Below are positions 11,901-52,959 of a stretch of 64,000 nucleotides of DNA, piece after piece. The first letter of the stretch is position 1. Every line of letters starts with the position of its first letter. This DNA is from Coriobacteriaceae bacterium EMTCatB1 (lineage in GTDB: Bacteria > Actinomycetota > Coriobacteriia > Anaerosomatales > Anaerosomataceae). The stretch is from assembly GCA_001950395.1 (NCBI GenBank), contig BDLO01000001.1, positions 1,029,979-1,093,978 on the forward strand, given 5' to 3'. A program made the translations under genes and the position numbers. Under the pieces are notes generated by a model. The model was not told the origin of the DNA and did no database searches. It saw only the letters and a list, made by a program, of their open reading frames with translations.

Positions 11901-12202
11901 GACTCCCCTCTTCCCACGTGACGAGCAAGGTCCGATGTCGCCAGCGGGGACAAGGGGCGTTTCGTGATTCGGCGGTCTCGTGCCCCGGCACTGTCCTGCT
12001 GACGCGCTCTCGGCCGGTTGCGCCACTGGCTCGTCGCCGCCCAAGGCGCCCACGTCACGGGCAGCGAGTCATCGCCTCCGAACCGCAGACCGGCAGTGCG
12101 CCCCTCACGTCCGGACTCGCGGTGTGTGAATTGTGAGCGAAGTCACCGGATTAGTCAATAGTGACTTTGGTCACATAGCGGCTGTGAAGGCGATGGTGGG
12201 CG
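11901..12202. other. 302-base intergenic region upstream of the 37-heme gene
   Basis: No gene is visible here. The right third holds two GTGA-N6-TCAC inverted repeats, annotated separately. A weak -10-like CACAAT on the minus strand lies at 12130-12135. That would place a transcription start near 12123 and leave a leader of more than 200 bases before the ATG at 11900. The left two thirds are GC-rich with no evident structure. Confidence 0.5.
12133..12174. promoter_or_regulatory. two tandem CRP/FNR-type operators (GTGA-N6-TCAC)
   Basis: GTGAGCGAAGTCAC lies at 12133-12146 and GTGACTTTGGTCAC at 12161-12174. Both match the GTGA-N6-TCAC half-site arrangement recognised by CRP-like regulators. Their centres are 28 bases apart. 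Relative to a possible start near 12123, the upstream site would sit close to -44 (activating) and the other would overlap the -10 region (repressing). Which regulator binds is unknown. Confidence 0.5.
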
Positions 12203-41270: not shown

Positions 41271-41346
41271 TGGTGGAGATGAGCGGACTCGAACCGCCGG
41301 CCTCTACCGTGCGAAGGTAGCGCTCTCCCAGCTGAGCTACATCCCC
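41271..41346 (-). tRNA. tRNA-Ala(CGC)
   Basis: A full cloverleaf can be drawn. The 7-bp acceptor GGGGATG/CATCTCC has the G3:U70 pair that identifies alanine tRNAs. The D arm is GCTC/GAGC. The anticodon arm is CTACC-TTCGCAC-GGTAG with anticodon CGC (reads GCG). The T loop is TTCGAGT, the discriminator is A and the encoded CCA lies at 41271-41273. It sits in the 145-base gap between hemD and the small membrane protein gene, same strand. GCG is expected to be a frequent Ala codon in such GC-rich DNA. Confidence 0.95.
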
Positions 41347-42218: not shown

Positions 42219-43178
42219 TCAGGTCCCCAGAAGCTCGTCGGCCCGCTCAGCGCCACGGATCTCGGCGAGGATCTCGCCTGCGCCGCCGTCCAGAAGCTCG
42301 CGCACCATGCGCTCCCCGAGCGCGACCGGGTCCTCGGCCGGGCCCTCGACGTGCCTGCGGATTATCGTGGAGCCGTCGAGCGAACCGACCATCGCGTCCA
42401 TGACCATCGTCGCTCCCTCGATGCGAGCGTACGCGCCGATCGGCACCTGGCACCCGCCCTCGAGCCGCCGCATCACGACGCGCTCCGCGGTGACGCACTC
42501 CATCGTCTCCGGGTGGCCGATGCGCTCCATGAGGTGGCGCATCTCCTCGTCGTCTTCGCGTATCTCCACGCCGATCGCGCCCTGACCGACGGCGCTGATC
42601 ATCTGCTCGGGCTCGATGTAGTGGGTGATGCGGTCGGCCCAGCCCATGCGCGTGATGCCAGCGGCCGCGAGGATGACGGCGTCGACGACGCCCTCCTCAG
42701 CCTTGCGCATACGCGTATCGAGGTTGCCGCGCACGTCCACGATCTCCACGTCTGGCCTCAGGTTCCGAACCTGCGCGACGCGCCGCAAGCTCGAGGTGCC
42801 GACGCGCGCCCCTTCCGGCAGCGTGTCGAGCGTGTACCCGGCGCCGCTCACGATCACGTCGCGGGGATCGACGCGCTCGGGCATAGCGGCGATGAACAGG
42901 CCTTCGGGCAGCTCGGTCGGGACGTCTTTCATCGAGTGGACGCACATGTCGACTTCGCCGGCCATCAGCGCGACTTCGAGCTCCTTGGTGAACAGCCCCT
43001 TGCCGCCCACCTTCGCGAGCGGGACGTCGAGGATCTTGTCGCCCGTGGTCTTTATGACCTTGAGGCGCACCGGAAGCCCGGTTATCTCCTCGACCATCCC
43101 CTTGATGTGCTCGGCCTGCCACAGGGCGAGCTTGCTGCCCCTGGTGCCGATGACGAGCTCAGTGCGCTCAGCAGCCAA
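42219..43178 (-). CDS. hemC: hydroxymethylbilane synthase (porphobilinogen deaminase)
   Basis: A 319-residue enzyme that polymerises four porphobilinogens. Signatures are IGTRGSKLALWQAEHIK at the start, VHSMKDVPTELP, GTSSLRRVAQVR, GNLDTRMRK, and the dipyrromethane-cofactor cysteine in RLEGGCQVPIGAYA. Likely start: TTG at 43178, overlapping the hemA 3' end by 11 bases, with GGGAG about 7 bases upstream. No ATG or GTG fits the conserved N-terminus, and an upstream ATG would add about 35 residues of non-family sequence. Confidence 0.94.
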   Translation of the reverse strand: MAAERTELVIGTRGSKLALWQAEHIKGMVEEITGLPVRLKVIKTTGDKILDVPLAKVGGKGLFTKELEVALMAGEVDMCVHSMKDVPTELPEGLFIAAMPERVDPRDVIVSGAGYTLDTLPEGARVGTSSLRRVAQVRNLRPDVEIVDVRGNLDTRMRKAEEGVVDAVILAAAGITRMGWADRITHYIEPEQMISAVGQGAIGVEIREDDEEMRHLMERIGHPETMECVTAERVVMRRLEGGCQVPIGAYARIEGATMVMDAMVGSLDGSTIIRRHVEGPAEDPVALGERMVRELLDGGAGEILAEIRGAERADELLGT

Positions 43179-44541
43179 GTCCGTCTCCCGTCTCCTTCGC
43201 AGCGTGCGTGTCGTGGATCTCGCGGGCCTTGCGGTTGAGAAGCGAGCGAAGCAGCCCTGATCCGCGAGCGCCTTCGGCCTCATCCAGCCCGTAGAGCTCG
43301 CGCGCGGCCTCGACGACGAGGTAGCCGTCCGCCTCTTCGGCGGCCGCCTTGAGCCGAGCCGTCGGGCCGTGGAGCATCTTGTTGACGATCGCGCACGTGA
43401 GCGCGTCGATCGTGGCCAGCTCCTTCTCAGACAGCCCGCTCAGACGCTTGAGGGCGCGCTCGAGCTCGGCCTGGCGGATCGCCTCGGCCTTCGCGCGGAT
43501 TGCGGCGACGGTCGGAACGACCTCGAGGGACTCCTGCCACTTCAAGAACTCGGCGATCTCCTCTTCGATGATCGCCTCGGCGCGCTCGGCCTCGCGCATG
43601 CGCTCTTCCAGATTCGACTCGACGACGCCGTTCAAGTCGTCGATGTCGTACACGTAGACGTCAGAGAGGTCGTTCACCGCAGGATCGACGTCACGCGGGA
43701 CCGCGATGTCGATGAAGAAGAGCGGCTTGCCCCGACGGCCCCTCATCACCTCAGCGACGTCGGCCTTCCTCACGACGAAGTCCTGCGCTGCCGTCGAGGA
43801 GATCACGATGTCGGCCTCGCGCATGCACTCGAACAGCGAGCCGTACTCGATCGCGCGCCCCGAGAAGCGCTCGGCGAGCTCCACAGCCCGCTCGTAGGTC
43901 CGGTTCGCGACGAGCACGTCGACCGCCCCGTTGCACACGAGGTACTTCGCGGTGAGCTCGCTCATCTTGCCCGCGCCGATGATGAGCACCGTGCGGCCTT
44001 CGAGCGAGTCGAAGACCTTCTTGGCGAGCTCCACGGCCGCGTAGCTGATCGAGACCGCGTTCTCGCCGATGGCCGTCTCCGTGCGAACGCGCTTTCCCAC
44101 CTCGAACGACTGCCTGAACAAGCGGTTGAACGCTCTGCCCGTGGCGCCGTTCTCGAACGCGTGCTCGTAGGCCTCCTTGACCTGCCCGAGGATCTGCGCC
44201 TCGCCGATGACCATCGAGTCGAGCGACGACACCACGCGGAACAGGTGCCGCACGACCGCCTCGCCCTTGACGACGTACAGGTAGCGCACGAGGTCGTGGC
44301 GGTCGAGGTCGTGGTAGTCGGCCAAGAAGCCCCGGACCGCGTCCACGCCTCGATCGGCGTCGGAGGAAAGCGCGTAGATCTCGGTGCGGTTGCAGGTCGA
44401 AAGGATGACCGCCTCGGAGACGGCACCGTCAGAAGTGAGCTGAGAGAGCGCCTCCGCCTGCCGCGCAGCAGGGAAGGTGAGCTTCTCCCTCATCTCTATG
44501 GGCGCGGTCTTGTGGCTCAGACCGACGAGAACCAGGTGCAT
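43168..44541 (-). CDS. hemA: glutamyl-tRNA reductase
   Basis: A 457-residue NADPH-dependent enzyme that commits glutamyl-tRNA to tetrapyrroles. The N-terminal motif LVGLSHKTAPIEMREKL is followed by the catalytic Cys50 in ILSTCNRTEIY, MVIGEAQILGQVK, the NADPH site IIGAGKMSELTAKYL, and the C-terminal dimerisation helix with LERALKRL. First gene of the hemA-C-D unit. The Shine-Dalgarno sequence is poor. A foldable leader with a terminator-like hairpin precedes it, so expression is probably controlled after initiation. Confidence 0.95.
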   Translation of the reverse strand: MHLVLVGLSHKTAPIEMREKLTFPAARQAEALSQLTSDGAVSEAVILSTCNRTEIYALSSDADRGVDAVRGFLADYHDLDRHDLVRYLYVVKGEAVVRHLFRVVSSLDSMVIGEAQILGQVKEAYEHAFENGATGRAFNRLFRQSFEVGKRVRTETAIGENAVSISYAAVELAKKVFDSLEGRTVLIIGAGKMSELTAKYLVCNGAVDVLVANRTYERAVELAERFSGRAIEYGSLFECMREADIVISSTAAQDFVVRKADVAEVMRGRRGKPLFFIDIAVPRDVDPAVNDLSDVYVYDIDDLNGVVESNLEERMREAERAEAIIEEEIAEFLKWQESLEVVPTVAAIRAKAEAIRQAELERALKRLSGLSEKELATIDALTCAIVNKMLHGPTARLKAAAEEADGYLVVEAARELYGLDEAEGARGSGLLRSLLNRKAREIHDTHAAKETGDGLGC

Positions 44542-44575
44542 GTCGCCTGCTTCGTCACGCCTCTGCCTGCATCAC

Positions 44576-44680
44576 AAAAAGGGTCGCCCCCGCCGGTGCG
44601 GTGCGTTGTTGTTCAGGCAAGCAGGCCCGGCGGGGGCGGTATACGCCTCGCATCTGCGCACACGCTACGCTTGCCTGAAC
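44576..44680 (-). promoter_or_regulatory. hemA leader with interleaved inverted repeats and terminator-like hairpin
   Basis: In transcript order (minus strand) the leader has four segments: GTTCAGGCAAGC (44680-44669), CGCCCCCGCCGG (44638-44627), GCTTGCCTGAAC (44622-44611) and CCGGCGGGGGCG (44596-44585), followed by ACCC and TTTTT (44580-44576). Segments 1 and 3 are exact complements, and so are 2 and 4. The 2/4 stem with the T-run looks like an intrinsic terminator 35 bases before hemA. The 1/3 pairing traps segment 2 and could prevent it, or both may form a pseudoknot. Confidence 0.65.
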
Positions 44681-44686
44681 GCCCCA

Positions 44687-44716
44687 ATGCTACCACCCGG
44701 CACGCCCGTCGCACAA
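44687..44716 (-). promoter_or_regulatory. candidate hemA operon promoter
   Basis: On the minus strand TTGTGC (44711-44716) is followed by 18 bases and TAGCAT (44687-44692). The predicted transcription start is near 44680, exactly where the first arm of the foldable leader begins. This supports an RNA-level role for the leader. Confidence 0.45.
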
Positions 44717-44745: not shown

Positions 44746-45957
44746 TCATGCTTCGAGCCACGACTCGACGGGAAGGCGCAAGAACTCTGCCACGGGAATC
44801 CCGTCTCCGCCCACGAGCAGCGGACGCGCACCAGGGACTCGTTTCGTGAACGCGTCTAGCCCAGAGAGGCGGCCTGCGCGTCGGCCGCTCTTGACCTCGA
44901 TCGCCACGACGCGCTTGCCCTTGGCGATGACGAAGTCCACTTCCTCGTTGCCATCGCGCCACCAGTAGAGCTTCACGGTCCCTGCCGCTGCGGCATTCAC
45001 GAGATGGGCGCCCACCGCGGACTCCACCCAGTGGCCCCAGATCTCTGGGTCGCCTCGGACATCGTCGAAACGCGCATCAGCCATCGCCGATAGCAGTGCG
45101 TTGTTGTGCACCTGCAGCTTCGGACTGGAACCTCGCCTCCTCACCGGCTGCGTCGAGTACTTCTGCAGTCCGGAAAGCAGGCCGGCGCCGGACAAGAGGT
45201 CGAGATAGTGCGCCAGCGTCACCGTGTTGCCTACGTCTTGAAGCTGACCGAGCATCTTGTTGTAAGAGACGACGCTGCCGGAGTGCTCACAGCCCAAACT
45301 GAACAACCGTCTGAGCAAGGCAGGCTTCTCGATGCGCTGCAGCAACAGTATGTCGCGCGAGATAGCCGTCTCCACAAGAGAGTCGAGCACGTACGCTCGC
45401 CACCGCGGCTCGTCATGGATCAGCCATGCGGCTCCCGGATAACCGCCGAAATACACGAACTCATCGAACTCGACGTTGAAGGCAGACGCCATCTCATCGT
45501 ATGACCAATGGAGCACGTGAATCGTCTCGAATCGACCCGCCAAACTCTCGGAGACGCCGTGGACAAGGAGGACCGGGGTCGATCCCAGAAGGACTGTTTT
45601 CACGGAGGTCCCAGCCGACGTGTCCTCGTCCCACAGCCGCTTGACGGTCTCCGGCCAACCCGTGACCTTTTGGATCTCGTCCACGACGAGGATGCACGAG
45701 CCCTCCTTGCGGGCGTGGACGCGAGCGCGCTCCCACTGAGCCGCAAGCCACGCGCGGTCCTTCAGGGCCGGCTCGTCCGCTGATACCGATACGACAGGCT
45801 CGTCAACGATCGAGAGCACCTGTCGAACCATGGTCGTCTTACCTACCTGGCGCGGACCGACGATGACCTGGATGAGACGACGTGGCTCAGACAGCCGCTC
45901 GGCCAACACGCCGACCTGCGCGCGCCGATACGGCGGGATGTCGGGCAAAATGCTCAT
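44746..45957 (-). CDS. AAA ATPase with C-terminal DUF4143-type nuclease-like domain
   Basis: A 403-residue protein of the AAA_14/DUF4143 kind common in bacteria and archaea. Walker A is VGPRQVGKTT (residues 33-42), Walker B ILVVDEIQK and sensor LLGSTP. A winged-helix region follows, then a C-terminal restriction-endonuclease-like core (YWWRDGNEEVDFVIAKGKRVVAIEVKSG with D, E and K). Cellular role is unknown for the family. It interrupts the ccm and hem blocks and has its own palindromic operator-like sequence, so it looks like an inserted, self-regulated gene unrelated to heme. Confidence 0.85.
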   Translation of the reverse strand: MSILPDIPPYRRAQVGVLAERLSEPRRLIQVIVGPRQVGKTTMVRQVLSIVDEPVVSVSADEPALKDRAWLAAQWERARVHARKEGSCILVVDEIQKVTGWPETVKRLWDEDTSAGTSVKTVLLGSTPVLLVHGVSESLAGRFETIHVLHWSYDEMASAFNVEFDEFVYFGGYPGAAWLIHDEPRWRAYVLDSLVETAISRDILLLQRIEKPALLRRLFSLGCEHSGSVVSYNKMLGQLQDVGNTVTLAHYLDLLSGAGLLSGLQKYSTQPVRRRGSSPKLQVHNNALLSAMADARFDDVRGDPEIWGHWVESAVGAHLVNAAAAGTVKLYWWRDGNEEVDFVIAKGKRVVAIEVKSGRRAGRLSGLDAFTKRVPGARPLLVGGDGIPVAEFLRLPVESWLEA

Positions 45958-47866: not shown

Positions 47867-48550
47867 TCAGCCTCCTAGCCCGATCTTGAGCGCTTCGAGG
47901 CGCTCCTTGAGCTCTTCTTCCTTCAAGCGCAGCTGGTAGAACGCGTATCCCAGCATCAGCATCCCGATCTGGCCGACGATGAAGGTCACGAGCATCGGCG
48001 GCTCGAGCCCTCCGCTCTTGAACACGACCGGGTGCGTGCTCTGCACGACGCGCGTGATGAAGAACGAGATCGGCGCGTCGATGAACGCAAGGATGCCGAA
48101 CGCCGCCGCGTACGTCGCGCGGCGCTCCTCGTCCTCGACGGAGTTGCGCAGCACGAAGTACCCGATCACGAGGAGCGTCATGATGAAGTACGTCGTCAGC
48201 CGCGGCTCCCACTGCCACCAGACGTTCCACTCCACGCGCGTCCAGAGGATGCCTGTGGCCATCGTCAGCAGCACGAAGAAGAGCGTCACTTCCGTGGCGA
48301 TGCGCGCCTTGACGTCGAACTCCTTGCGCTTCGTCATCAAGAACCGCACGCCATAGAACGCCGTGAAGAAGAACACGAGGAACGACGCTTCGGCCACCGG
48401 CACGTGGAAGTAGAAGATCTTCTGCGCGAAGTCCACCCGTCCGTCCGGATACACGCTTGGCGGGGCCCAGAAGAAGGTCATGAGGAATGCCGCGGTAGTG
48501 AGGACCGCGCCGAGCACCAGCATGACCTCCGCGAGGTAGCCGCGCTTCAT
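47867..48550 (-). CDS. ccmC: heme handling protein CcmC (System I)
   Basis: A 227-residue protein with six membrane segments. The WWD heme-binding motif reads TRVEWNVWWQWEPRLTTYF near residues 103-121, flanked by conserved histidines in YFHVPVAEASF and near RVVQSTHPVVF. CcmC loads heme covalently onto CcmE outside the membrane with the CcmAB ATPase. The charged C-terminal helix (LRLKEEELKERLEALK) is cytoplasmic. It lies 19 bases after ccmB. Confidence 0.93.
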   Translation of the reverse strand: MKRGYLAEVMLVLGAVLTTAAFLMTFFWAPPSVYPDGRVDFAQKIFYFHVPVAEASFLVFFFTAFYGVRFLMTKRKEFDVKARIATEVTLFFVLLTMATGILWTRVEWNVWWQWEPRLTTYFIMTLLVIGYFVLRNSVEDEERRATYAAAFGILAFIDAPISFFITRVVQSTHPVVFKSGGLEPPMLVTFIVGQIGMLMLGYAFYQLRLKEEELKERLEALKIGLGG

Positions 48551-48569
48551 GCGGGACTCCTTCCTGCGC

Positions 48570-49274
48570 TCACGCTTCGATGACGAACTCGTACAGCCCG
48601 AAGGCTGCGAGCACCATTATGATATCGAATCCCGCGATCCAGCCCATCCAGTTCCAGAACGACGCCGTCGCGTCCGGACCGCCGATCACCGCCGCGAAGG
48701 TGGCGCCGACCGCCGCGCGAAGCAGCGGGTACTGCAGCGGCACGAACAGGACGGCGAGCATGATGTCCTTGCCGGTGGTGTTCACCGAGATGGTGGCGAG
48801 CAAAGTCCCGATTCCCGAGATGCCGATCGACGCGCCGACGAGCACGAGCGCGACCATCCACAGCGGCCCGCCGAACCCCGCGCGCCCCTGCAGGAAGAGG
48901 AATGCGAACACCGGCAGCGTGAGCGCCTCGACAACGAGCAAGAACAGCAGGTTGCCTGCGAACTTCGCGAGGAAGATCACCGGGCGGTCGATCGGCGCAA
49001 GCAGGAGCGCGTCCAGGCACCCCTGGTCCTTCTCGTGCACGAACGAGCGGTTGAGCCCGAGCATCGACATGAAGATGAAGGCCACCCAGATAAGCCCTGG
49101 CATCACGAGCCGCACGTCCAGCCCTTCGCCGGCCTCCACGAGCGCGATCTGGTAGACGACCATCGTGAGGATCGCGTACAGCCCCATCGAGGTAAGCATC
49201 TCGCGAGTGCGGAGCTCCATGACGATGTCTTTGCGCAGGATCGCCTTGAACTGGCGCCAGGAGAGCGAGCCCAT
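48570..49274 (-). CDS. ccmB: heme exporter membrane subunit CcmB (System I)
   Basis: A 234-residue protein with six membrane segments. Near the start is the ATPase-contact region SWRQFKAILRKDIVMELRTREM. The stretch RSFVHEKDQGCLDALLLAPIDRPVIFLAKF is typical of the CcmB family. It pairs with CcmA. The ATG at 49274 shares a base with the ccmA stop (TGATG), so the subunits are translationally coupled. Confidence 0.92.
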   Translation of the reverse strand: MGSLSWRQFKAILRKDIVMELRTREMLTSMGLYAILTMVVYQIALVEAGEGLDVRLVMPGLIWVAFIFMSMLGLNRSFVHEKDQGCLDALLLAPIDRPVIFLAKFAGNLLFLLVVEALTLPVFAFLFLQGRAGFGGPLWMVALVLVGASIGISGIGTLLATISVNTTGKDIMLAVLFVPLQYPLLRAAVGATFAAVIGGPDATASFWNWMGWIAGFDIIMVLAAFGLYEFVIEA

Positions 49275-50002
49275 CACGACACCCCCATGCCGACGACCGA
49301 CCGGTAGGTGGCGCGGAACGCGCGCTCGTCGATGTCCTCGCGCTTCTCGAAGAGCACGACGCGGCCTTGCGCGAGGATGAGCGCGTGCGTGCACAGCTCG
49401 AGGCCCTTCTCGAGGTCGTGGCTCACCATCACGAAGGTGTGGTGCTGTCTGATGCTCGCGACGAGCGAATCGAGGATGTCCATCGCGTGCGGGTCGAGAC
49501 CCGAGTACGGCTCATCGAGGAAGAGCACATCTGGCCTATGCAGCAGCGCCCGCGCGATCGACAAGCGCTGGAGCATGCCGCGCGAGAAGGTCCTGGTGGT
49601 GTCGAGACGACGGTGGTCGAGCTCCACCGCCTCGAGCAGCTCCCGAACCCGCTCCTCGGGACGCTCCACGCCGTACATCTCGGCGAAGAAGAGCAGGTTC
49701 TCCTCGGCGGTGAGGTCCGGATAGAGCAGCGGGTTGTGGCTGATGAGCCCGATGCGTGAGCGCAGCTCGACGGCGCCTTCAACCACGTCCAGACCGCACA
49801 CGCGCGCGCTCCCGCTTGAAGGAGCCACGAGCGTCGTGAGCACCTTGAGCAGCGTGGTCTTGCCGGCCCCGTTCGGGCCGAACACCGAGAGGAACGCCCC
49901 TTCCGGGACCGAGAAGCTCACACCGTCGAGCGCCTTGCGGACGCCGAAGGCCCGCGTCAGATCGCGGACCTCGACGGCAGGCTGATCGACCGGCTCGGGC
50001 AT
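49274..50002 (-). CDS. ccmA: heme exporter ATPase CcmA (System I)
   Basis: A 242-residue ABC ATPase. Walker A is FGPNGAGKTT (residues 41-50), the Q-loop region is LISHNPLLYPDL, the signature is altered to FSRGMLQRLSIARAL (SRGM replacing SGGQ, as common in CcmA), Walker B is LFLDEPYSGLD and the H-loop is VSHD. With CcmB and CcmC it releases heme-loaded CcmE. Seven bases follow ccmF. Confidence 0.93.
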   Translation of the reverse strand: MPEPVDQPAVEVRDLTRAFGVRKALDGVSFSVPEGAFLSVFGPNGAGKTTLLKVLTTLVAPSSGSARVCGLDVVEGAVELRSRIGLISHNPLLYPDLTAEENLLFFAEMYGVERPEERVRELLEAVELDHRRLDTTRTFSRGMLQRLSIARALLHRPDVLFLDEPYSGLDPHAMDILDSLVASIRQHHTFVMVSHDLEKGLELCTHALILAQGRVVLFEKREDIDERAFRATYRSVVGMGVS

Positions 50003-50009
50003 CGCGTCC

Positions 50010-52064
50010 TCACGCCGCCTGGAGCTGCCGCTTCGGCCACGACGCGAGCGCCGTGCCGACGATCGTCACGATGAATCCGGCCCACACCCACCACTGCATC
50101 GGGAAGAACTTGACGGTCACCGACGCCTGGCCGTTCTGGTCGACGCCGTGGAACGAGACGAAGACGTCTTTGAGCGGCTCCTGGATGAGCGCGACCTTCT
50201 GGGTGCTCTGATTCTTGCTCTGCAGCTGTATCGGGAACACGATCTTCGGCTTCAGCACACCGATGTCGCGAGCGCCCCGCTTGGCAGCAAGCTCCAGCGT
50301 GTACACCACGTCGCCGTTCGGTTCCGTCGTTTCCTTGAGCTCGCGGACAGCGAAGGAATACCCGTGCGCTTCTGCGACCGTCCCCGGCTTCGTCTCCACA
50401 GAAAGCTCGTGCGTCTCCACGAACATCGTCGAACCTACGAGGCCGACGAGGATGATCCCCATGCCGAGGTGGGTGAGGTAGCCGCCCGATTGCGTCCGGG
50501 CCTTCGTCATGATCCGACGGAGCGCCGTGAAGAAGCTCTCGCCTCGAGCGGCCGCCCTCTTGCGCGCGCCGTCGTAGAACAGGTACAGCGGCAGCGCGAT
50601 CGCGAGCGCTGCGGTGAGCAGCCCGGACACGGCGATGAAGTGGTGCCAGAACGCGCTTTCGCCTGCGGGCTGGTAGTACGGCAGCATCCCGTTGAAGAAG
50701 ATCGCCATCAGTCCCGCGAACACGGCCAGCCCTCCTGCGAGCGGCCACTTCGCGCGCTTCCAGAACTCCGCCCAGCCCTGGCCGCCCCACGACAGGATCG
50801 GGCAGACGGTCATCACGAGGATGTAGAAGATGCCGAGCGGCCTGGCCAGGAGGTTGTAGTCGTCGATGCCGTACGTCTTGCCGCCACCGATCCACGCAGG
50901 CAGCGACTGCGCGAGCGTCATGTACGCAATGAGGAAGGTCGCGAGCAGCATGATGAGGTTGTTGAAGTAGTACGAGCCCTCTTTGGAGATCACGCGGTCG
51001 AACGCGTCGTTCCCTGCCAGAGCGTCACGCCGCCAGACGATGGCCCCGACCATCACCACGAGCGAACCCACCATCATCGAGAGGAACAACCAGAACGACA
51101 GCGGATCCTGCTCGAAGGCGTGCACCGACTGGACGATGCCCGAGCGCGTGATGAAGGTGCCCAGCAGCACCACGACGAAGGTGACGGCGGACATGAACAT
51201 CGTCCACCCTTTGAAGCCCTCGCGCCGGCGGTACACCGTCATCGAGTGGATGAGCGCGACGCCGGTGAGCCACGGGAGAAGCGACGCGTTCTCAACCGGG
51301 TCCCACGCCCAGTAGCCGCCGAACGCAAGCTCGATGTACGCCCAGATCGCGCCGAGCCCGATGCCGACGCCGAGCATCAACCACGAGAAGACGGTGATGC
51401 GGTCGGACATCTGCACCCACCGCTTCGAGGTGTCGCCGAGGAACAGAGCCGCCAAGGCGAACGCGAACGGCACGGCCAGACCTGCGTATCCGATGAACAG
51501 CGTCGGCGGGTGTGCCACCATCGCCCAGGTCTGGAGCAGCGGGTTCATGGCCGCCTCGATGAGCAGACGGCCCGTCTGCGGATCGAGGTACTCAGGCGGC
51601 AGCAGCTTGAACGGGTTGTTCAGCGGGATGAACAGCGCCGCCAGGAAGAACAGCTGGATGAAGTTCAGCACGCCTGTCGCCGCAAAGCCCAGGTCGTCGT
51701 CGTGCTTGAGCGCCTTGTAGCCCACGTACGCAGCGTAGATGGCGATGAGCCACTCCCAGAACAGCAGCGAGCCCTCGCGACCGGCCCATATCCCCGATAC
51801 GCGGAACAACCACGCCCAGGGACCGACAAGAGTGGGGTGGTTGTACGCCACGTACTCCAAGGTGAAGTTCTCGCCGAGGAATGCAGCGACGATGAGCACC
51901 ACGGCGAGCGTCGTGAACGCGAGCGTCCCGTACGTGAGGTACACCGCGAGAGGGCGAGCCCCACCCCTGGCGGGCGTACGCGTCATCGCCGCAGACACGA
52001 TGGACCCCAACGCGCAGATGCTCGCGAAGGCCAGAAGAAGGTTGCCCAGGGTGTCGAGCCCCAT
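50010..52064 (-). CDS. ccmF: cytochrome c heme lyase subunit CcmF (System I)
   Basis: A 684-residue polytopic protein (about 15 membrane segments). The WWD motif reads GAIWAYIELAFGGYWAWDPVENASLLPWL near residues 235-265, and conserved histidines occur in MVAHPPTLFIGYAG and ALIHSMTVY. The C-terminal large periplasmic domain is present. CcmF transfers heme from CcmE to CXXCH apocytochromes. No CcmH or CcmG gene is visible nearby, fitting a reduced System I. It lies 51 bases after ccmE. Confidence 0.94.
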   Translation of the reverse strand: MGLDTLGNLLLAFASICALGSIVSAAMTRTPARGGARPLAVYLTYGTLAFTTLAVVLIVAAFLGENFTLEYVAYNHPTLVGPWAWLFRVSGIWAGREGSLLFWEWLIAIYAAYVGYKALKHDDDLGFAATGVLNFIQLFFLAALFIPLNNPFKLLPPEYLDPQTGRLLIEAAMNPLLQTWAMVAHPPTLFIGYAGLAVPFAFALAALFLGDTSKRWVQMSDRITVFSWLMLGVGIGLGAIWAYIELAFGGYWAWDPVENASLLPWLTGVALIHSMTVYRRREGFKGWTMFMSAVTFVVVLLGTFITRSGIVQSVHAFEQDPLSFWLFLSMMVGSLVVMVGAIVWRRDALAGNDAFDRVISKEGSYYFNNLIMLLATFLIAYMTLAQSLPAWIGGGKTYGIDDYNLLARPLGIFYILVMTVCPILSWGGQGWAEFWKRAKWPLAGGLAVFAGLMAIFFNGMLPYYQPAGESAFWHHFIAVSGLLTAALAIALPLYLFYDGARKRAAARGESFFTALRRIMTKARTQSGGYLTHLGMGIILVGLVGSTMFVETHELSVETKPGTVAEAHGYSFAVRELKETTEPNGDVVYTLELAAKRGARDIGVLKPKIVFPIQLQSKNQSTQKVALIQEPLKDVFVSFHGVDQNGQASVTVKFFPMQWWVWAGFIVTIVGTALASWPKRQLQAA

Positions 52065-52115: not shown

Positions 52116-52787
52116 CTACTTCTCGTTCTCGTCGACCGCCACGTCAGTGGCGACGAACACGCCGTTCATCAGCTCGCCAGAGATGACCATCTTCGCGCCA
52201 GACGTGGCACCCTGCGGCATGGCGCCGGACCACGAGACGTCGACGGTCTCGCCGCCCTTCGAAGTCGTGCCGAGCGTGAAGCGCGGCTCGGTGCCCGAGG
52301 GCTTCACGCTGCCCTCGACCACGTAGCCCGTGATCTTGACCGGCTTGCCTGCTAGTTGGCTCTTCAGGAGCGCATCGACCGTCAACGCGTCTCTCGCCGA
52401 CGCGTACTTGCTGGGGCACTGCGTGATCAGCTGTTTCGCCTCGATGGTCTGGTCTTCGCCCACGATGCCCGTCACGATAGCGACCGTGCCGTCGCCGAAC
52501 GCGCTCGGAACCGGGCCGTTCCACACGACCTTGATCGTCGGGCCGTTGGCGTCGTCCATCTGGCGGATGGCGAAGGTGAGCGGCTTGGCGTCGGGCGTCC
52601 ACGACCCGGCCACCACCGGGCCTTGCACCTGCACCTGCTTGCCGACGAGCGAAGGATCGGACACCACCTCGGCGACCGACTTCTTGTACGCGCCGCCTTG
52701 CGTCATGACGAAGAGCACGAACGCTCCGACGACGACCAAGATGAGCACTGTCACGCCGACCAGGCGCTGCTTGGCTCGCTTGTTCAA
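52116..52787 (-). CDS. ccmE: cytochrome c maturation protein CcmE, CXXXY variant with a second OB-like domain
   Basis: A 223-residue protein. An N-terminal membrane anchor (about residues 9-28) precedes an OB-fold heme chaperone domain (about 45-122). The covalent heme ligand is Cys124 in QCPSKY (CXXXY) instead of the common HXXXY. This cysteine form is known from archaea and some bacteria whose Ccm system lacks CcmH (System I*). Past the motif, where typical CcmE ends, a further 75 residues (VKITGYVVEGSVKPSGTE to MNGVFVATDV) look like another OB-type barrel. First gene of the ccm unit, behind a foldable leader. Confidence 0.88.
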   Translation of the reverse strand: MNKRAKQRLVGVTVLILVVVGAFVLFVMTQGGAYKKSVAEVVSDPSLVGKQVQVQGPVVAGSWTPDAKPLTFAIRQMDDANGPTIKVVWNGPVPSAFGDGTVAIVTGIVGEDQTIEAKQLITQCPSKYASARDALTVDALLKSQLAGKPVKITGYVVEGSVKPSGTEPRFTLGTTSKGGETVDVSWSGAMPQGATSGAKMVISGELMNGVFVATDVAVDENEK

Positions 52788-52879
52788 CGGGCCTCACTCC
52801 ATTCGTGTGCCGAACGTAGACCGGGCGAGATGGGCTTCGCGAAGCGCTCGCTTCGCGCGAGAAGCACCGTTCGTCGCCT

Positions 52880-52959
52880 GCTTGCCTGAACAGGTGGATA
52901 GTACCACCTGGCGCCGTCCCCGCCAACGCAGGGGCGGCTGTCCGTCCACTCAAGCAAGC
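52880..52959 (-). ncRNA. candidate three-way-junction RNA in the ccmE leader
   Basis: Read as minus-strand RNA, GCTTGCTTGA (52959-52950) pairs completely with TCAGGCAAGC (52889-52880), including one G-U pair. They enclose two hairpins: GCCGCCCC/GGGG-A-CGGC (52938-52931 with 52921-52913) and CAGGTGG/CCACCTG with a 6-base loop (52910-52891). The G-U pair is a pair only in RNA of this strand. The closing helix has the same sequence as the helix in the hemA leader. It lies 92 bases before ccmE and I match it to no known riboswitch. Confidence 0.55.

Follow-up and report, generated by a model that had tools for sequence, protein, structure and literature searches.

Small RNAs that act at the extreme 5' end of an mRNA have been described in Bacillus subtilis, where RoxS stabilises yflS, and in Streptococcus pyogenes, where FasX stabilises ska (PMC5419742; PMC4691137; PMC7509114). 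The locus considered here, the hemA leader in a 64,000-nucleotide stretch of DNA from Coriobacteriaceae bacterium EMTCatB1 (the whole stretch is called the window below), resembles these systems in that the predicted pairing involves the very first nucleotides of the target mRNA, away from the ribosome site. It differs from them in that the regulator would usually be the leader of another mRNA, that of hemA, which would also pair with its own 5' end, and in that the pairing covers a second site as well as 9-16 bp and has been conserved in two classes; stabilisation here would be an effect by analogy. In PMC5419742, irvA, of the irvA-gbpC pair in Streptococcus mutans, is presented as a trans-acting riboregulatory mRNA. 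The predicted action of one mRNA on another in trans is common to irvA-gbpC and the present locus, which differs in that its presenting hairpin is structured and covarying and has a reciprocal target in cis. To our knowledge, irvA-gbpC is known from one species.

The SAM riboswitches SreA and SreB of Listeria act in trans (PMC4691137). Like them, the hemA leader is a 5' leader element with predicted roles both in cis and in trans; unlike them, it has no SAM aptamer or other known ligand domain, and a single segment does the pairing in both settings. With H-type pseudoknot riboswitches and intrinsic-terminator attenuators it shares interleaved helices in a 5' leader and, in some members, a U-run, but it has no known aptamer, its U-run is unconserved, its interleaved helices number three, and the partner strand may lie on another RNA. 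No hemA or ccm RNA of this kind was found in the open-access papers searched.

From sequence and comparison together come the presenting stem, the pairing in cis, the complementarity in trans, the position of arm A at the predicted +1, the joint losses and changes, and the rearrangements described below. The hemA leader probably supplies the presenting part of a riboregulator made of two parts, which captures hemA and ccm mRNAs by their 5' ends. Two classes of Actinomycetota retain the base-match between the loop and these 5' ends, which has the look of a previously undescribed RNA circuit tying heme production to heme use. We propose that the element has the fold of a pseudoknot and the mode of action of a 5'-end-binding riboregulator, outside all Rfam families. 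Proposed as new are the use of a metabolic mRNA's leader as the regulator, the service of cis and trans targets by one loop, and the repeated rearrangement of the parts in evolution.

Interleaved helices in the hemA leader

The hemA gene (glutamyl-tRNA reductase; Pfam GlutR_N, Shikimate_DH and GlutR_dimer) occupies positions 43168..44541 of the minus strand of the window, the strand on which all other features given here also lie, and is preceded by a 139-nt leader. Its predicted promoter consists of a -35 box TTGTGC (44711..44716) and, after an 18-nt spacer, a -10 box TAGCAT (44687..44692); TTGNNN is also found about 18 nt 5' of the -10 in the hemA promoters of relatives. The -10 box ends 6 nt 5' of arm A, GTTCAGGCAAGC (44669..44680), so that the hemA transcript is predicted to begin with the first base of A, at 44680. 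The spacing from -10 to arm in relatives' hemA leaders is 6 nt in 36 genomes and 7 nt in 17 (n=53). Upstream of the promoter, between it and an SDR gene, the window has an AAA_14/DUF4143 ATPase gene (44746-45957) that is apparently missing from the corresponding place in L004, where sequence like the end of the SDR gene reaches the hemA promoter. One species, represented by L012 (G023), has an extra GTTCAGGCAC in the -35 region of this promoter. A tRNA-Ala(CGC) gene (41271-41346) lies within the hemA-hemC-...-hemB cluster.

Arm A is the exact complement of A' (44622-44611), which lies within a loop segment, GCCTGCTTGCCTGAAC (44611..44626), that complements 12 nt of the hemA 5' end and 16 nt of the ccm 5' end. 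The loop is held by a 12-bp presenting stem whose 5' strand, C, is CGCCCCCGCCGG (44627..44638) and whose 3' strand, C' (44585..44596), is its exact complement. The initial annotation of this leader had described these arms, as 1-2-1'-2' with two exact 12-bp pairs and a transcription start at the first base of arm 1, and had regarded them as an attenuator or pseudoknot responding to the need for heme, of no recognised riboswitch family. The arms are present at 44680-44585 as described; the promoter boxes, the 6-nt gap and the 6- or 7-nt spacing in relatives back the start, which is predicted at 44680 and not downstream of 44669, a placement the annotation had held would count against its reading. 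What it overlooked were a third interleaved helix and a second copy of arm 1, at the +1 (52891) of the ccmE operon. The third helix pairs arm B, GTGCG (44657..44661), with 44605-44601 in the loop segment B', ACGCACCGC (44598..44606), which complements B of both the hemA and ccm leaders, so that the order of helices is A-B-C-A'-B'-C'. In 2000 dinucleotide shuffles of a 149-nt leader sequence, any exact 12-bp pair arose in 0.1%, and an interleaved pair of at least 11 bp in none (0/2000). The folding z-score of the leader is -1.4 and a standard fold shows the C hairpin alone, as expected of a pseudoknot, since programs blind to pseudoknots see only C/C'; thermodynamics by itself was dropped as evidence for the element. 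The three helices can, on geometric grounds, coexist, because A' starts directly after C, B' ends beside C', and an AACAA linker bridges the far ends.

Conservation was assessed in genomes that are nearly all MAGs, and in counts taken without phylogenetic correction hemA was located in 59 of 61 relatives. Of the 69 genomes from the order Anaerosomatales, 65 have exactly one strong copy of the element by a covariance model (E < 1e-15), and a second class of Actinomycetota carries it in 16 of its 36 genomes. The element sits between promoter and hemA in every readable leader among the first 30 loci. Exact matches to the core pattern are mostly labelled Coriobacteriia, Coriobacteriales, Anaerosomatales or Actinomycetota/Actinobacteria MAGs, and matches to the f21-type core pattern are labelled Coriobacteriia or Actinomycetes. 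Weak class matches (E about 0.0003-0.08; f18, f19, f22 and f23, for those read) proved to be coding sequence or to have no core, and were set down to chance.

The covariation that the annotation expected to find in relatives is present. The structure with three helices leaves 96.8% of cells paired in alignment A1, where sliding it lowers the figure to 38-43%, and both B and C show two-sided changes; the C stem by itself is 100% paired with one two-sided change, in 11 sequences. Because the MAFFT alignment of distant hairpins (A2) loses register in the stems, duplex energy, in place of a second covariance model, served to compare them. Across nine distant groups the sequences of the C stem differ and the pairing stays, with means of -27.0 kcal/mol for matched arms and -15.9 kcal/mol for mismatched ones. 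Positions 1-8 of A/A' are paired in 71 of 71 cis cases, and covariation in cis comprises UA>CG at position 3 (f92), CG>UA at position 4 (f42 and f94) and GC>AU at position 7 (f42); the arm GTTTAG[AG]CAAGC of f42 and f94 matches GCTTG[TC]CTAAAC. For B/B' in cis, z = -2.25 over 60 genomes. The helices are thus interleaved, as in a pseudoknot, and covary at C/C', at A/A' across classes and at B/B' inside the order. Also conserved are unpaired bases, namely AACAA between A' and B', ATAY before C, and CC after C'. The bases just 3' of C' (44570-44584) follow a loose consensus, ..CC.[TA]TG[TC]CC, across much of the order. A conserved uORF starting from ACCCATG directly after C' was considered and rejected, as it is frequent in one family and otherwise not kept; likewise, a Shine-Dalgarno site hidden in C' would suit G064 alone, and the distance to hemA ranges from 8 to >200 nt.

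The ccm operon 5' end as a second complement

Some relatives, described below, have the hairpin without a cis arm (f20 and f17) or without a detectable hemA, so the loop must serve something else there. The D-loop of tRNA-Glu is a conjectural complement of the loop. In the window, the sequence complementary to the loop turned up exactly at one further place, 52891, 6 nt past a -10 and 8.2 kb from the hemA leader. The ccmE-F-A-B-C operon (Pfam CcmE, CcmF and CcmB) begins here, and its predicted promoter has a -35 box TTGGCG (52921..52926), a 17-nt spacer and a -10 box TACTAT (52898..52903). Over its opening 16 nt, GTTCAGGCAAGCAGGC (52876..52891), the predicted ccm mRNA is exactly complementary to the hemA-leader loop, compared with 12 nt for the cis arm; CGGTGC (52864..52869), the complement of B', comes after. 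The operon runs from ccmE (52116..52787) through a ccmF-to-ccmC stretch (47867..52064) assigned from Pfam and open reading frames, with ccmF at 50010-52064, a ccmA-like ABC ATPase gene at 49274-50002, ccmB within 48570-49394 and a ccmC-type gene at 47867-48550. The CcmE of the window has 223 aa and two CcmE-like stretches; the one read from the sister class, in L307, has 141 aa.

The arrangement recurs widely. From the predicted +1 on, the first 30 ccmE leaders of the order and those of f20 all read GTTCAGG[CT]A, and GCAGG and GGTGC (B) come next in most of the order's ccmE leaders; the ccm leaders of f17, f20 (minus genus g45) and f21 also begin in this way, generally without B. In 63 genomes of the class the ccm mRNA begins, by its predicted start, with arm A, and in 62 ccm leaders the arm lies 6-8 nt past the -10. 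A pattern of promoter plus GTTCAGG finds about two sites per genome, at hemA and ccmE, and its reversed control gave one match in total in 61 genomes. A sequence upstream of ccmE in f42, GTTTAGAC, was discounted as the -10 region of another promoter and not arm A.

Several observations support pairing in trans. Among the 68 trans pairs, positions 1-9 always form standard pairs. Changes in the ccm arm fall at positions 8, 9, 10, 12 and 13 and are mostly C>T or A>G, which preserves G-U pairing; positions 1-7 show no change inside the class. In the other class, the hemA arm (GTCCAGGC), loop (GCCTGGAC) and ccm start (GTCCAGGTAAGC) of G575 (f92) share one change, GTCCAGG with CCTGGAC, and in G064 and G083 the loop CTTACC pairs with ccm GGTAGG. 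True compensations in trans number about three independent events, few because A' is so conserved. When partners were shuffled, 11 of 5000 shuffles were as good as the true pairing, with a gain for own partners of about 0.4 kcal/mol per pair, kinship ignored; the gain is small because both sides are highly conserved. Where both pairings exist (51 genomes), the one in trans is the stronger in 48. For B/B' in trans, the mean z is -2.65 in the order; trans B/B' is unsupported in f17, f20 and f21 taken as a group, and outside the order B is partnerless save in G085 and the f70/f89 group. Hairpin and ccm motif are missing together from G040 and genus g45 (G065, G067 and G073), which have the hemA and ccm genes. 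The match to the very 5' terminus of the mRNA is conserved and comes with compensatory change (in f92 and f20), as expected of regulators of the 5'-end-binding type. Since f42/f94 and f83 show cis pairing only, trans action would not be universal. The compensatory changes support cis and trans pairing alike, and both pairings are very probably real.

Rearrangement of arm and hairpin

Six ARRANGEMENTS are built from one set of parts, an arm and a hairpin. Across them, the arm is the predicted 5' end of a hemA or ccm mRNA and its complement lies in the hairpin loop. In Anaerosomatales and f92, arm and hairpin are at hemA and a further arm is at ccm. In f20 and f17 a hairpin with the loop CTT[GA]CCTGAAC is at hemA, there is no cis arm, and the arm is at ccm only. 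In f21, where hemA was not found, the hairpin is 3' of ccm with a terminator and the arm is at ccm; three genomes without detectable hemA keep the hairpin just 3' of a ccmB-ccmC run, and in two of the three a terminator hairpin is clearly next. In f42 and f94, arm and hairpin head a ccm cluster (ccmC-type, ccmE and ccmF in L307), with hemA about 7 kb downstream of the element and having no leader element of its own. In f83, arm, hairpin and T7 are at hemA. In f70 and f89 the arm is at the start of hemA, and a free hairpin ending in T6-7 forms a separate unit with promoter-like boxes, found between moaC and mogA or elsewhere. In f70/f89 this free hairpin-terminator unit may be a separate regulator transcript; in the order the regulator would be the hemA leader itself. 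The hemA leaders of f70/f89 (L340, L342, L343 and L346) show a second hairpin and T-run after the 5' arm, with the look of a separate terminator; loop parts GG.TTT.T ... GA..GCCG are common to three of these four leaders. Natural rearrangements of this sort, with the parts in cis, in trans, at a 3' end or on a free RNA, would make the evolution of a riboregulator directly readable.

Candidate modes of action

It is unlikely that pairing in trans works as a simple ribosome-site switch, since the ccm pairing in the order lies far from the ribosome site and access is unchanged: predicted access to the ribosome site of the ccm leader with A and B blocked is 0.384, versus 0.391, and the idea that pairing masks or frees this site was dropped for want of any systematic change. 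The fixed +1 position of the arm points to the 5' end itself and, together with the 5'-end protection known elsewhere, is the reason why 5'-end capture is put forward. In the two-part riboregulator proposed here, the GC-rich stem C/C' would present a loop bearing A' and B'; A' would pair with 9-16 nt at the head of target mRNAs, whose start is at A, and B' would give a second contact in Anaerosomatales. With its first nucleotides sealed, the mRNA could be shielded from 5'-dependent decay, as with RoxS and FasX. The clamp would be shared by the ccm and hemA messages or be an object of competition between them, and synthesis of heme could in this way be matched to cytochrome c maturation. We infer both the meeting of the RNAs in the cell and its outcome. 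A change in mRNA lifetime, of either sign, is the leading candidate for that outcome and is put forward tentatively; the coaxial A and C helices could also be an RNase III substrate, in which case cleavage would reverse the sign.

Attenuation, in which the C hairpin terminates hemA transcription and A/A' pairing, in cis or with ccm RNA in trans, alters termination, is an unlikely account. The TTTTT that the annotation had pointed out after the stem is indeed in the window (44580-44576, four bases past C'), where it is at most a local weak terminator; T7 follows C' in f83 (G509), and f70/f89 have T6-7 closing the free hairpin and, in their hemA leaders, a separate hairpin and T-run. Strong T-runs after the hairpin are restricted, however, to f83 and f70/f89 of the sister class. 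A conserved U-run directly after the GC stem is missing in most members of the order, the two congeners L004 and L005 included, and the T-run occurs in only six of the order's listed leaders. Nor does attenuation readily accommodate the f20/f17 hairpin, which has no cis arm, or the ccm leaders, which carry A too and have no obvious terminator. Of the annotation's reading, a conserved, covarying pseudoknot-type RNA running from the hemA start is supported; a general terminator and an action confined to hemA in cis are not, given that the loop complements the start of the ccm mRNA too and that genomes in which hemA was not detected still have the hairpin. A split riboswitch, in which the A-B strand and the hairpin, brought together in cis or in trans, fold a pocket binding heme or one of its precursors, seems similarly improbable. 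The conserved unpaired AACAA, ATAY and CC outside the helices and the constant tie of the element to hemA or ccm speak for it, but the linker and flanks are variable in f20/f17 and there is no similarity to any riboswitch in Rfam. As a long shot, the element might be a two-strand aptamer whose strands moved between cis and trans positions as it evolved, with heme or a precursor sensed jointly by the loop and the 5' end of an mRNA from the heme pathway; the leader of one mRNA would then complete the switch of another.

A purely cis hemA pseudoknot or attenuator, with the likeness at ccm an incidental result of the proximal sequence shared by a duplicated promoter, would agree with cis A/A' pairing in 71 genomes and with the promoter and A-B that hemA and ccm have in common in the order. 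It is very unlikely in view of f20, f17 and f21, where A occurs at ccm only and the loop is confined to hemA or the 3' side of ccm; of the lack of detectable hemA in f21; of f70, where hemA bears A and a free RNA bears the loop; and of the joint changes in G575 and G064/G083. That GTTCAGG at +1 is instead a DNA operator bound by a transcription factor, with the loop as a second operator, is hardly credible: the constant position relative to the -10 at both promoters would suit it, but the loop copy lies inside a covarying stem of unrelated sequence and may be far from any promoter (f20 and f21), A varies mainly by changes that preserve G-U pairing, and A and A' change together.

The proposed capture of mRNA 5' ends yields a distinct prediction, that the first mRNA of heme synthesis, through its leader, binds the message for cytochrome c maturation at its 5' end. 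Should this hold, one mRNA would be linked to another by a deeply conserved contact that keeps the supply of heme in balance with its use. The annotation's failure to recognise a known riboswitch family is borne out by Rfam, which returned nothing at the gathering threshold for the hemA leader and, at relaxed thresholds, one chance match on the opposite strand (18.8 bits against an 80-bit cutoff). A riboswitch of known type is found elsewhere in the window, a cyclic di-GMP-II riboswitch at 12003-12087 (Rfam RF01786, 65 bits, E 2.6e-12).
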